A stretch of 33,826 nucleotides of DNA from NCBI GenBank assembly GCA_963575715.1, contig CAUYTW010000155.1, forward strand, positions 1-33,826. Reading direction: 5' to 3'. The translations under genes and the position numbers were made by a program. This DNA is from Gammaproteobacteria bacterium. GTDB lineage: Bacteria > Pseudomonadota > Gammaproteobacteria > CAIRSR01. Position 1 is the stretch's first letter; the number at the start of each line of letters is the position of its first letter. The notes below the pieces were generated by a model that worked only from the letters and a program-made list of their open reading frames with translations, was not told the origin of the DNA and searched no databases. Below, one piece after another: positions 1,698-33,826 of this stretch.

Positions 1698-1941
1698 CAG
1701 TGTCTCCGAGAAATCTCGTTCTTGAGGGCGGGGAGTATTTAAGGAGACGATTTTTGCAATCATCGGTAAAAATCTGGTCTTTCACAGCGGTAGTCTGTAA
1801 GCGACCCAAATGAACGAGCCTTTCGGCTCACCCGAATTGCGCAAGAAGCCCCGGCAAACGCCGGAGAGGGATAGTGTACCGTGCAATCCCGTTTTCAATG
1901 TGTCTGCTGGCAAGCACCGTCCTTTAGGGCGGGGTAATTGA
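1698..1941 (-). repeat. Internally deleted HEARO/omega-RNA-like element, minus strand (copy 3)
   Basis: Read on the minus strand it starts with TCAATTACCCCGCCC, the same left end as the full copies. It keeps a degenerate 3' core (GAGCCGAAAGGCTC hairpin, then GTGAAAGACCAG) and ends with the hairpin and tail CTCGGAGACACTG, directly followed by ATGA (1694-1697). The 5' half of the core RNA is missing, giving about 244 nt instead of about 350-430. The right end sits 19 bases beyond the rnm stop codon. The short minus-strand frame starting at its ATGA lies antisense to rnm and is not called as a gene. Confidence 0.7.
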
Positions 1942-1972: not shown

Positions 1973-2016
1973 TCAATTACCTTGACTTGAAGGACGAAGT
2001 TTATCGAGGATATTGG
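1973..2016 (+). repeat. Miniature element (left end fused to right end) just upstream of a full copy
   Basis: About 44 nt with the left-end motif TCAATTACC and the right-end-like tail TTTATCGAGGATATTG, compared with TTTATCGGGGACACTG in the miniature copy before degQ. It is directly followed by the full copy at 2017. No core RNA remains. The assignment rests on short similarity and is tentative. Confidence 0.4.
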
Positions 2017-2392
2017 TCAATCACCCCGCGCTAAAGGGCGGGGCTTTTGAAACTGAGCACGAGGTTGACCAGCTTTAGTTCGAGAAATCGGACTACGTTG
2101 CAACGAAGTAAAAGACTCACCCTGGGATGCTTCCTCAGTTCCAGGCTCTGAAAGCGGCGGATGCAGACAAAGTTCGGGTAACTACGAAACGGTCTGCTGC
2201 AAAGTTCGTAAGAACTGAAGCTGCGTTGCAACATTGGCGAGGGGAGCCACACCGTAAGGTGTGCGTTACTAGGCCCGTAAGGGCTGACAGCCGGGAAAGA
2301 CCGGCAACTTAAAAATTTTGCTATCTAAAGGGACGGAAAAAACCGTCCCCTTTCATCCCCGCCCTAAAGGGCGGGGTTTCTCGGGGACATTG
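2017..2392 (+). ncRNA. Full-length HEARO / IscB-type omega-RNA-like element (copy 4)
   Basis: One of three well-preserved copies, about 376 nt. Order: left-end motif TCAATCACCCCGC with a GC hairpin; GTTGACCAGC; hairpin GTTCGAGAAATCGGAC; GTTGCAACGAAG; CCTGG..CCAGG hairpin; AGCGGCGGATGC; a GCAGAC..GTCTGC stem around 2162-2197; AGTTCGTAAGAACT; a second GTTGCAAC; CACACCGTAAGGTGTG; GCCCGTAAGGGC; CCGGGAAAGACCGG; then the right-end hairpin CCCCGCCCTAAAGGGCGGGG and tail CTCGGGGACATTG. The motif string CACCCTGGGAT..GCGGATGC and the CCG-GAAAGACCGG hairpin resemble HEARO/IscB omega RNA as I remember it. No nuclease gene accompanies it. An IS200/IS605-derived non-coding element is the main alternative. 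Confidence 0.75.
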
Positions 2393-24679: not shown

Positions 24680-25530
24680 ATGATATTAACCACGATAATT
24701 TTTGAAAAAATTGAAAAGCTATTACCACGTCAACGTGGTAATGTGACATATTCCAATTTTTCTGTACTAACCGCGATACTATATGTTTTAGAAAACGGTT
24801 GTAAATGGAGAGGTCTCCCAAGAGAATTTGGGAATTGGCACACGATTTACACGCGCGCCAATCGATGGGCAAAAAGAGGTGTCCTGGATCGCGTCCTTTC
24901 TGTATTGAAGGAGGAATTAATTAAGGAAGTTGAGCATGTATCGTTGGATAGTACAATTATTAAAGTACATCCCGATGGTACCGGTGCGTTAAAAAGTAGT
25001 GGTCCACAATCGATCGGTAAAACATGCGGTAGATGGACCACAAAAATTCATACGATTGCAATCAATGATAAAAAATAACTTTATTTTTCATTATCTTATG
25101 GATAAAAACACAATGCACCCGAAGGAAGAAAACTCCTCGAACAATTAAACATAGAAAAGCTGGAAAGAATTTCAGTAATCATGGATAGAACTTATGAGGA
25201 CGATAAAACAAGGAAGTTAGTATCTGATCTTAGAATGGAACTTGTAGTTCCTATAAAAAAGAATAGAACTATAAAATGGAAATATAATAAAAAACGTACA
25301 AAAAATAAATGAATTTGAACGATTATTCAAGAGATTAAAAAGATTCAGAAGGGCTTTTACAAGATTCGATAAATTAGATATTAATCTGTGCATTGGTTAG
25401 GTGACACTCTTAAAATTGGAGATCCAGTCCACAGCCTATCACACAATTTTTTAGGTGTCACTTTACTTATGCACAGATTAATATCATGTTTAATTTCTTT
25501 ATTTTGGCCTAATTATGGATATGTTTAATT
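24680..25530 (+). pseudogene. IS5-family DDE transposase, broken
   Basis: The N-terminal 132 codons are open (YVLENGCKWRGLPREFGNWH, then first catalytic Asp in HVSLDSTIIKVHPDG). A TAA at 25076 ends this frame. The same frame then continues with LYFSLSYG, a second TAA at 25103, and APEGRKLLEQLN..VIMDRTYEDDKTR with the second Asp. A stop and one-base shift near 25310 separate this from NEFERLFKRLKRFRRAFTR with the catalytic Glu. A palindromic insertion splits the C-terminus at KLDI, and IMFNFFILA follows it. The breaks are in-frame stops plus an indel, not a programmed frameshift, so the gene is dead. Confidence 0.85.
25377..25485. mobile_element. 109-bp palindromic MITE nested in the transposase pseudogene
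   Basis: 17-bp perfect terminal inverted repeats (GATATTAATCTGTGCAT at 25377-25393 and its complement at 25469-25485), extended imperfectly inward to GTGACAC and GTGTCAC. It interrupts the transposase between KLD and IMFNF. It has no coding capacity. The family is not recognised; any target duplication is hidden by the AT-rich palindromic ends. Confidence 0.75.
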
Positions 25531-25602: not shown

Positions 25603-25962
25603 TCAGCCACTACCCTGCCGCTAGTCTGTTTGTGAAAGTTTTGAAGACATACTTGGATATGATTTTGGGTTATCATAGACTCTATCCCGCTGACGCCTGC
25701 ATCAGTTGTGAAATGCGGATAATTCAGGTGTAGAACGAAACGGTCCGAAAAGTTATAAAGTACTGAACTTCACACATGGCAACTTTGGCGTAGGGGGAGC
25801 GATGCCTTGAAAAGCCTTAGTCACCAGGCCCGTAAGGGCTGACAGTCGGGTAAAGACTAGCTCCTAATTTAGGCTAAAATCATTAATTCTGACACCAAAG
25901 GCAGAATTTCCTCCTCTTGACCCCCTTCTCGAGATCAAGATGGGATATCCGCCGAGGATTTG
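25603..25962 (+). repeat. Decayed HEARO/omega-RNA-like element (copy 9), first of a tandem pair
   Basis: Left-end-like CCACTACCCTGCCG with TTTGTGAAAG, then recognisable core pieces: AACGAAACGGTCCG, CATGGCAACTTTGGCG, GTCACCAGGCCCGTAAGGGC and GTCGGGTAAAGACTAG. The right-end hairpin CTTGACCC..GAGATCAAG and tail CCGCCGAGGATTT lead straight into the next copy. The 5' core is badly eroded. A TATAAT at 25588-25593 lies just ahead of its left end. Confidence 0.6.
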
Positions 25963-26309
25963 TCAATCATCCCGCCCTAAAGGGCGGATTTTGTGAAAAC
26001 AAATCTGAGCTTGACCAGCCTTAGTTCGAGAAATCGAACTACGTTGCAACGAAGTATAAAGACTCACCTTGGGGGCGCTTCCTCAACTCCAAGCTCTGAA
26101 AGCGGCGGATGCAGACACGGTGCGGGTAACTACGAAACGGTCTGCCGCAAAGTTCTCAAGAACTGAAGCTGCGTTGCAACATTGGCGAATGGAGTCACAC
26201 CGCAAGGTGTGTGTCACTAGGCCCGTAAGGGCCTGGCAGTCGGGAAAGACCGGCAACTTAAAACCGCCCGCTTACCTCCTCACTGCTAAAGCTGTGGTGC
26301 GGGCATGTG
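25963..26309 (+). ncRNA. Full-length HEARO/omega-RNA-like element (copy 10), second of a tandem pair
   Basis: About 347 nt, nearly collinear with the copy at 2017. Left end TCAATCATCCCGCCC, then GCTTGACCAGCC, GTTCGAGAAATCGAAC, CTTGG..CCAAG hairpin, AGCGGCGGATGC, GCAGAC..GTCTGC, AGTTCTCAAGAACT, CACACCGCAAGGTGTG, GCCCGTAAGGGC, GTCGGGAAAGACCGGCAAC and tail GGGCATGTG ending at GTGA (26310-26313). Several stems differ from the copy at 2017 by paired changes, which argues that the RNA structure was selected. The 140 bases from 26310 to 26449 contain no other feature I can name. Confidence 0.75.
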
Positions 26310-31666: not shown

Positions 31667-32170
31667 ATGAATCAATTACGCCAAGGACTGGGTCGGGCTT
31701 TGGAGAATTTGACTGAAGGCTGGCATCAAGTCGTAGAAAGGGCGGGTGATGCGCTTACCCGTTTCAATCCGGTACGTCAAGCAGTAGAAAGTCCTGGAGC
31801 ATTGGTGGAGCGTTATGCTCCGCGTTGGGGCATAGTGGCGGCGGAATTGCGTGAGGATGGCGATGCCTTGGTGATCAAGCTCGAATTGCCGGGCATGGAA
31901 CCAGAGCAATTCGATGTGGACGTGGTTGATGATTTTTTGGTCATCCGTGGTGAGAAACGTGTGGAACGGGAAGAAGCTCGTGGGCGTTATCACCTTATGG
32001 AATGCGCTTACGGGAGCTTCGAACGGGCGATACGCTTACCGATGCCCGTTGATCCCACTCGGACTAAGGCGCGCTATCGTCATGGTGTCCTCACAATCAC
32101 CTTACCCAAACTCGCCTCACATCATACCCGTCGCATCAAAGTCAATAGCGAGTCAACTACCCCGCCTTGA
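31667..32170 (+). CDS. Hsp20/alpha-crystallin family small heat-shock protein
   Basis: 167 residues. The alpha-crystallin domain (about 63-150) contains VIKLELPGMEPEQFDVDVVDD, LVIRGEKRVEREEARGRYHLMEC, YGSFERAIRLP and ARYRHGVLTITLPK. It is an ATP-independent holdase that keeps unfolded proteins soluble. The C-terminal IxI-type anchor appears as RRIKVNSES and is imperfect. The last codons (S-T-T-P-P-stop) are made of a repeated element's left end (TCAACTACCCCGCCTTGA), so the natural C-terminus was replaced. The start codon is the ATGA bordering another element. It is followed by degQ on the same strand after 51 bases. Confidence 0.92.
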   Translation: MNQLRQGLGRALENLTEGWHQVVERAGDALTRFNPVRQAVESPGALVERYAPRWGIVAAELREDGDALVIKLELPGMEPEQFDVDVVDDFLVIRGEKRVEREEARGRYHLMECAYGSFERAIRLPMPVDPTRTKARYRHGVLTITLPKLASHHTRRIKVNSESTTPP

Positions 32171-32221
32171 AGAGCGATTTGTGCAAGCATGCCCTAAGGG
32201 TGAGATTTATCGGGGACACTG
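32153..32221 (+). repeat. Miniature element joining hsp20 and degQ (copy 13)
   Basis: 69 nt consisting only of a left end (TCAACTACCCCGCC plus hairpin and TTTGTGCAAGC) joined to a right end (GCCCTAAGGGTGAG, tail TTTATCGGGGACACTG). It overlaps the end of hsp20, supplying its last codons and stop, and its tail provides GGGGA (32212-32216) 5 bases before the degQ ATG. The right border abuts ATGA (32222). Confidence 0.7.
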
Positions 32222-33604
32222 ATGAGAATTAAACGCATCTCTATAACCAACACAGTACTATTGGCCGGAGGGTTGCTCTGTGGCATAACTCCATTAATCT
32301 GGGGAGCATTGCCGTCCAAATTGATGGATGGACGCGAAATACCCAGTCTCGCGCCGATTTTAGAGCCTATTCTGCCCTCGGTAGTTAATATTTCGACTCG
32401 GTCCAGGGTTCGGGTGCGTAAAAGCCCTTTATTTGACGATCCATTTTTCCGTCATTTTTTTGATCTCCCCGAGCGGCCTCGGGAACGAGTGGCCCAGAGT
32501 CTGGGATCGGGAGTGGTAATCAACGCGAGTAATGGCTACGTAGTCACCAACCATCATGTAGTGGACAAGGCTGACGAAATCACGGTTACCCTTCAAGATG
32601 GCCGTGTTCTTCAAGCTCAACCGGTGGGATCCGATTCCGATACCGATATCGCCGTCATTCAAATCCCCGCAGAACACCTCACCGCCATTCCCCTGGGAGA
32701 TTCCGATCGACTTCGGGTAGGAGATTTCGTCACTGCCATCGGAAATCCTTTTGGTCTGGGACAAACCGTCACCTCAGGCATCGTCAGCGCGCTCGGTCGT
32801 TCTGGACTCGGCATTGAGGGCTACGAAGACTTTATTCAAACCGATGCCTCTATCAATCCCGGTAATTCTGGTGGTGCCTTGGTTGATCTTCGTGGTGAGC
32901 TGGTTGGCATCAATACCGCCATTCTCGCTCCTAATGGCGGTAACGTTGGCATCGGATTCGCCATTCCGGCTAACATGGCGCACCAAGTCGTCACTCAACT
33001 TACCGAGCATGGAAGAATGCGTCGTGGAAGTCTTGGTGCCCAGCTTCAAGACGTGACTCCAGACTTGGCAGCAGCCTTTGGTATTCCCTCTCAGGGAGCG
33101 GTCGTCGCCAAGATAATGCGCAACTCATCCGCTGACCAGGCAGGGTTACGAGTAGGAGATGTTGTCGTTGCCATCAATGGTCACATGGTTCATGGTAGCC
33201 GCGACCTACGCAACACTTTTGGTATGTTGTCAATTGGTGCCAAGGCCGAGCTGCGCGTATTACGCGGTGGTCGTCCCGTGCAATTTACTATTAAAGTCCT
33301 TGACCCGCGAAAAGAAACTGTATCTGGCGAGCAAATCGATGATCGTCTAAGAGGCGCAGTTTTCGGCACAATTGCTGAAAATTCTCCAAACTCAGAAGAA
33401 TGGGAAGGAGTAATGGTTGTTGAGATAAGCCAAGGAAGTAAAGCAGCGAACGCCGGACTGCAAGAAAATGATCTATTGGTAGCAATTAACCGTCAACCCA
33501 TTCGCAACCTCGACGATTTAAAGCGAATGACTCGGGGAAAAAATAATAATCTCTTGCTCAATATCCAGCGCGGCGCTGCTTCCTTTTTGATTTTATTACA
33601 GTAG
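32222..33604 (+). CDS. degQ: Periplasmic serine protease/chaperone, DegP/DegQ (Do) family
   Basis: 460 residues, close to E. coli DegQ (455). An N-terminal hydrophobic segment (about 9-28) is a signal peptide or anchor. The trypsin-like domain holds the triad His112 (TNHHVV), Asp142 (DTDIAV) and Ser216 (PGNSGGA). PDZ1 (about 265-355, GSLGAQLQDVTPDL..GLRVGDVVVAINGH) and PDZ2 (about 380-455, GLQENDLLVAINRQPI) follow. It degrades or refolds misfolded envelope proteins. The linker after residue 55 is short (RSRVRVRKSPLFDDPFFRHFF), favouring DegQ over DegP. The start ATGA borders the miniature element, whose tail supplies the ribosome binding site. Confidence 0.94.
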   Translation: MRIKRISITNTVLLAGGLLCGITPLIWGALPSKLMDGREIPSLAPILEPILPSVVNISTRSRVRVRKSPLFDDPFFRHFFDLPERPRERVAQSLGSGVVINASNGYVVTNHHVVDKADEITVTLQDGRVLQAQPVGSDSDTDIAVIQIPAEHLTAIPLGDSDRLRVGDFVTAIGNPFGLGQTVTSGIVSALGRSGLGIEGYEDFIQTDASINPGNSGGALVDLRGELVGINTAILAPNGGNVGIGFAIPANMAHQVVTQLTEHGRMRRGSLGAQLQDVTPDLAAAFGIPSQGAVVAKIMRNSSADQAGLRVGDVVVAINGHMVHGSRDLRNTFGMLSIGAKAELRVLRGGRPVQFTIKVLDPRKETVSGEQIDDRLRGAVFGTIAENSPNSEEWEGVMVVEISQGSKAANAGLQENDLLVAINRQPIRNLDDLKRMTRGKNNNLLLNIQRGAASFLILLQ

Positions 33605-33652
33605 TGTCAGGAGTATTACCGTTGCTGCCTACCATTCCTATTTTCAGTTTAA

Positions 33653-33742
33653 GTCATTCTGCGCGAAGCGAAGTCGCAGAATCCATCTACTTATAGAGAT
33701 TCTGCGACTACGGGTGCTAACGCGCCCTTCGCGCAGAATGAC
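33653..33742. repeat. Nested palindromic intergenic repeat after degQ
   Basis: GTCATTCTGCGCGAAG (33653-33668) is the inverse complement of 33727-33742, and AGTCGCAGAATC (33672-33683) of 33698-33709. Together they form a 90-nt nested hairpin of the common GTCATTCTGCGCGAAGCGAA repeat type. It could end degQ transcription or be a REP-like mobile palindrome. A related short hairpin occurs inside the element copy at 22475-22494. The last 84 bases of the window hold no gene I recognise. Confidence 0.75.
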
Positions 33743-33826
33743 AGAAAAGAAAAAATTCGATCCTTTATAGCTAGGAGTTACGCAGTTGGAAGAGCTGGTA
33801 ATACGTAAAGAGGGTTCGCTAAATAA

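Follow-up and report, generated by a model that had tools for sequence, protein, structure and literature searches.

HEARO elements, according to their original description, are reportedly inserted next to ATGA or GTGA. Palindromic miniatures derived from IS200/IS605 elements (PATEs, REP/RAYT-like sequences) are non-autonomous, carry subterminal hairpins and cause no target duplication. HEARO RNAs and IscB are already known (PMC9755519). A literature search with few terms and few subscription papers yielded no account of translation-neutral insertion or translation-neutral ends, of HEARO-derived miniatures of 44-70 nt, or of right ends that act as leaders of genes.

The window analysed here, a stretch of 33,826 nucleotides from a gammaproteobacterial genome, contains a 70-nt sequence between hsp20 and degQ. 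We regard this sequence as very probably a non-autonomous, internally deleted HEARO element inserted 5' of an ATGA that formed the hsp20 stop/degQ start overlap, including the consequences for both genes described below.

Extent and origin of the ends of the 70-nt copy

The locus comprises the following features.
31667..32170, + strand, hsp20, small heat-shock protein of 167 aa (Pfam HSP20 at residues 62-160; translation)
32152..32221, + strand, miniature HEARO/IscB-type element of 70 nt, in which the left end is joined directly to the right end and the omega-RNA core is deleted
32152..32187, + strand, left-end part, the hairpin of which is decayed (by-eye alignment to the full-length left ends GTCAACTACYCCGCC.TAAAGGGCGGGGCTTGTGAAAACAAG; translation)
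32188..32221, + strand, right-end part, short hairpin GCCCTAAGGGT followed by TTTATCGGGGACACTG, with GGGG shortly before the ATG
32222..32225, + strand, ATGA, the native target of the insertion and start codon of degQ, which formerly also held the hsp20 stop TGA
32222..33604, + strand, degQ-like serine protease with Trypsin_2 and two PDZ domains (Pfam; orthologues in relatives)

A first-pass annotation of the same DNA had placed a miniature insertion of 69 nt at 32153-32221. The position was confirmed, but the length was one base short. Since the G before TCAA is conserved in the left ends of the family, the element comprises 32152-32221 and thus 70 nt. Based on a by-eye alignment, about 36 nt of the left end and about 34 nt of the right end are kept, the former matching GTCAAYYACCCCG and the latter TTTCTCGGRGACAYTG of the full-length copies. 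The left-end motif at hsp20 also finds matches among other genomic left ends (GTCAAYYACCCCG), and the right-end part is defined by about 40 scored matches in the genome (E of 1e-7 to 7e-3) together with a pattern survey. In this survey, a 20-base right-end pattern with at most three mismatches was found 69 times in a 1.13-Mb sample, compared to a single match in a first-order Markov control sequence. The matches of both ends to a dispersed family and the excess over the control confirm that the sequence is a miniature insertion.

The position between two genes and the weak hairpin would also fit a palindromic leader, either a chance structure or a functional terminator or attenuator without any relation to a transposon. 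This explanation is highly improbable, since both ends have counterparts in a dispersed family with cores of HEARO RNA, the right-end matches (69) compare to about one expected by chance per 1.13 Mb, and the same pair of ends occurs in other genomic copies. Furthermore, the predicted RNA fold of the 70-nt copy was no better than that of shuffled sequences. Palindromes unrelated to mobile DNA were ruled out by copy number and end pairing.

Two further inverted repeats were observed in the window. At 33641-33754, just after degQ, 28-nt arms lie 58 nt apart in a repeat with TCATTCTGCGCGAAG, which looks like another small palindromic element. At 25370-25492, an AT-rich inverted repeat of 49 nt, with 25 nt between its arms, is unlike the HEARO family.

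Relation to the HEARO/IscB family

Three other copies of the family were located in the window.
2016..2392, + strand, full-length family copy (HEARO RNA at 2016-2252, Rfam RF02033, 106.7 bits)
25962..26260, + strand, second HEARO RNA copy (match 25962-26200, RF02033, 85.7 bits; right end not recognised)
1698..1760, - strand, further right-end copy, then ATGA (pattern match)

The first two, which are full-length or near-full-length, score as HEARO RNA (Rfam) and match each other at 87%, and the copy at 2016..2392 ends where the citrate synthase gene begins with ATGA (2393; Pfam). Full-length copies comprise about 380 nt in the order GTCAATCACCCCG, hairpin, core, hairpin-TTTCTCGGRGACAYTG, followed by ATGA. 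In the whole genome, 129 matches to HEARO (RF02033) had an E of at most 0.001, and about half of these exceeded the Rfam cut-off. In relatives, the corresponding numbers were 69 for a same-genus genome, 37 for one same-family genome and 0 for another.

While the full-length family copies match RF02033, no match was obtained at 32152-32221 (Rfam), and an IscB gene is absent from the 70-nt copy because 70 nt are too short for any gene. Judged from its letters, the 70-nt copy is a deletion derivative of a HEARO/IscB element and not a full member. The first-pass annotation had not identified this family. An origin from IS605/TnpB, the first guess based on the subterminal hairpins, was discarded, as Rfam gave HEARO and plasmid relatives carry iscB.

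The 70-nt copy lies immediately 5' of ATGA (32222), as is said of the HEARO target. After filtering for a hairpin, 52 of 77 right-end matches were followed by ATGA, most of the others being followed by scattered single 4-mers that resemble chance matches. At a near-exact empty site of a related copy at hemL (not the window copy), the joined flanks GGAAAA-CAAAATGA match GGAAAAGCAAAATGA of the same-genus genome G001 across the junction, and no target-site duplication was found.

The miniature would have arisen by internal deletion of an element of about 380 nt, and either the miniature or its parent would have been moved in trans by a Y1 transposase of the IS200/IS605 type. Three Y1_Tnp loci over the cut-off were detected in the genome, of which one adjoins IscB and HEARO. 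At this locus (L192 161-2024; G000 C351:58-3581), a HEARO RNA is followed by a 392-aa IscB ORF that overlaps at its end with an ORF for a Y1 transposase. The right end of this locus, GGGGTTTTCTCGCCACATTTTATAA, is unlike that of the ATGA family. From its gene content, the locus is a candidate autonomous element and a candidate source of the transposase.

Within the preferred explanation, it can further be asked where the interior was lost. The 70-nt form may be a longer copy that shrank at this very site, in which case an element of about 380 nt was inserted and the 70-nt form itself never moved; we give this variant slightly less than an even chance. It would be in line with the left- and right-end hairpins, which are near-identical direct repeats and therefore prone to deletion, and with the many intermediate lengths among the copies. 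On the other hand, nine copies of an exact single-hairpin form of 44-45 nt in the 1.13-Mb sample suggest a defined, possibly mobile class of miniatures, although their hairpins differ. For these 44-45-nt forms, a deletion between the near-identical end hairpins would be a simple origin. One such copy of 44 nt (L220 2141-2184) lies between a long ORF, probably nadE, and the gene of a P-II protein; the upstream ORF reads 14 codons into it.

Consequences for hsp20 and degQ

The hsp20 ORF ends with ...KVNSESTTPP*, and TCAACTACCCCGCCTTGA corresponds exactly to 32153-32170. As proposed in the first-pass annotation, the reading frame runs into the element, so that the left-end motif provides the last five codons and the stop. 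In the hsp20 frame the left end reads (GA)G-TCA-ACT-ACC-CCG-CCT-TGA, and the last five residues of Hsp20, STTPP, are encoded by the element. The conserved domain (62-160) is unaffected by the insertion (Pfam).

A reconstruction of the site from its flanks, in which the 70 nt are removed and AATAGCGA is joined to ATGAGAATT, results in an Hsp20 ending with KVNSE*, the TGA of which overlaps the ATG of degQ. Accordingly reconstructed, the ancestral Hsp20 would comprise 162 residues; the insertion would have displaced its stop, with the left end giving a new one after five codons. In the element-free same-family genome G003, which is only about 70% identical, Hsp20 ends with KVNAE* and shows the same stop/start overlap with the ATGA of degQ. 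The overlap of four bases (-4) between hsp20 and degQ was also found in L046, L100, L116 and L118. The same-genus genome G001 offered no empty site for this pair, as hsp20 does not adjoin degQ there, and a base-exact empty site for hsp20-degQ was found in none of the relatives.

A longer Hsp20 tail had been expected at an uninterrupted locus. This expectation has to be reversed: relatives end with KVN(A/S)E, with the stop inside the ATGA overlap, and since the insertion added five residues (STTPP), the uninterrupted tail is shorter. Neither STTPP nor GGGGACACTG, the presence of which in relatives without an element would have spoken against an insertion, was found in the element-free relatives.

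Upstream of the degQ ATG (32222), the sequence GGGGACACTG shows that the right end supplies GGGGA and borders the ATGA, as had been noted before. The previous claim that one insertion defines both the C-terminus of Hsp20 and the start of degQ holds for the former, namely STTPP and the stop, but not for the latter. The ATG is the own start codon of degQ, and only its leader is now the right end of the element, with a Shine-Dalgarno-like GGGG/GGAG motif about six bases before the ATG. That the start codon is not made by the element follows from six other abutted genes, whose orthologues start with ATGA without an element. The element alters the initiation context of degQ and not its start codon.

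The opposite assumption, that the right end carries ATGA along and the element supplies the degQ start codon, could account for the ATGA that follows almost all right ends in the genome, including right ends that do not adjoin a gene. It is nevertheless very improbable: all six clear orthologues in G001 of element-abutted genes start with ATGA without the element, so the ATGA is host sequence; ATGA is present at the junction of the empty hemL site, and DegQ of the element-free relatives starts at the ATGA overlap.

According to the preferred explanation of an insertion directly 5' of a native ATGA, the tetranucleotide has remained on the degQ side, and Hsp20 lost its stop because the ATGA stays with degQ. 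As the sequence shows, the left end holds a stop in exactly the overlap frame (G|TCA ACT ACC CCG CCT TGA), by which Hsp20 gained five residues. The degQ ATG was kept, and the right end as leader puts GGGG/GGAG about six bases before it. If this motif acts as a Shine-Dalgarno sequence, such action would be the reason why the insertion was tolerated.

Right ends at gene starts and comparison with known systems

In the 1.13-Mb sample, 34 of the 69 right ends lie directly before the start ATG of an ORF (at least 100 codons, upstream frame closed), compared to 5.3% of all ATGA sites. The abutted genes include those of citrate synthase, a P-II protein and a class-III aminotransferase (hemL-like) according to Pfam; others look like housekeeping genes, judged from the N-terminal sequence. 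At several other copies, the gene upstream is in the overlap frame and has a SITPP-like tail; the preference for this frame is weak (11/20 by eye, p=0.04). Left ends of the GTAAATCACC type (GTAAA) were observed at L210 19359, L215 11793, L230 14347, L223 13847 and L249 4383. In the ATGA-overlap frame, these left ends give a stop at once (NNG TAA), so that no tail would be added to the upstream protein.

Right ends in the genome show GGAG or GGGG, six bases and ATG, as in a Shine-Dalgarno arrangement, and the motif would work as such. GGAG/GGGG was intact in 54 of 63 copies at gene starts and in 32 of 48 others (p=0.02), and of the right ends for which no left end could be detected, 22 of 29 were located at gene starts, compared to 14 of 35 with one (p=0.005). 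Retention of the motif and loss of the left end at gene starts fit a co-option, with the ages of the copies uncontrolled in both comparisons. As an extension of the preferred explanation, right ends could be kept at gene starts by the host as ribosome-binding leaders, beyond mere tolerance, and both comparisons point in this direction. Since copy ages are uncontrolled and part of the pattern is due to insertion or survival being biased towards ATGA at gene starts, we consider this extension possible but somewhat doubtful.

In longer copies, a GTCYCC located upstream is able to pair with the right-end motif, a partner that the 70-nt copy does not have. For the classes GGAGAC and GGGGAC, the matching form of the partner was found 20 times and a non-matching form twice (Fisher p=1e-4). 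The dominance of the matching pairing supports an outer stem, whether for transposition or for RNA structure.

It is proposed only tentatively that the HEARO/IscB miniatures of this lineage are translation-neutral at ATGA stop/start overlaps, with a stop for the overlap frame in the left end and a suitably spaced Shine-Dalgarno motif in the right end, and, at the same time, that many genes, among them core genes, now use co-opted right ends as ribosome-binding leaders. The four-base stop/start overlap as a site would offer a concrete route for a transposon to spread in compact operons without breaking genes, as the upstream protein ends a few residues later and the downstream gene receives a leader that contains a ribosome-binding motif. 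Provided that these leaders are functional, many genes here, including that of citrate synthase and probably those of a purine synthesis enzyme and other housekeeping functions (based on the N-terminal sequence), would begin translation from transposon DNA. Moreover, more than 100 insertions in one genome provide a natural test set for the target rules of IscB/HEARO.

A comparable arrangement was found on the plasmid NZ_CP017750.1 of Cupriavidus sp. USMAA2-4, where an intact IscB element separates traD from the next gene of the operon. TraD ends with GRSTTPP*, a tail that originates from the left end of the element and shares an identical STTPP* with Hsp20, and the gene that follows has an ATGA which overlaps with the stop of iscB. 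pCAR1 comprises the same gene order without iscB and with a different TraD tail; a close plasmid with an empty site for the traD insertion was not found, and the phages searched gave no match. Unlike the Cupriavidus element, the 70-nt copy carries no iscB, and its right end shows a Shine-Dalgarno-like motif. Since the Cupriavidus right ends comprise no GGAG, this motif is a feature of the lineage and not universal in the family.

Compared to the PATEs and REP/RAYT-like sequences, the 70-nt copy shares non-autonomy, subterminal hairpins and the lack of target duplication, but the family here belongs to the IscB/HEARO branch, includes single-hairpin forms of 44-45 nt and is placed precisely at start codons. 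There is also a likeness to the HEARO/IscB elements (RF02033; ISC, IS200/IS605-like): full-length copies here score as HEARO, one resident locus combines HEARO, IscB and Y1 TnpA, and the insertion 5' of ATGA agrees with what is reported for them. The 70-nt copy differs from these elements by having neither an omega-RNA core nor IscB.
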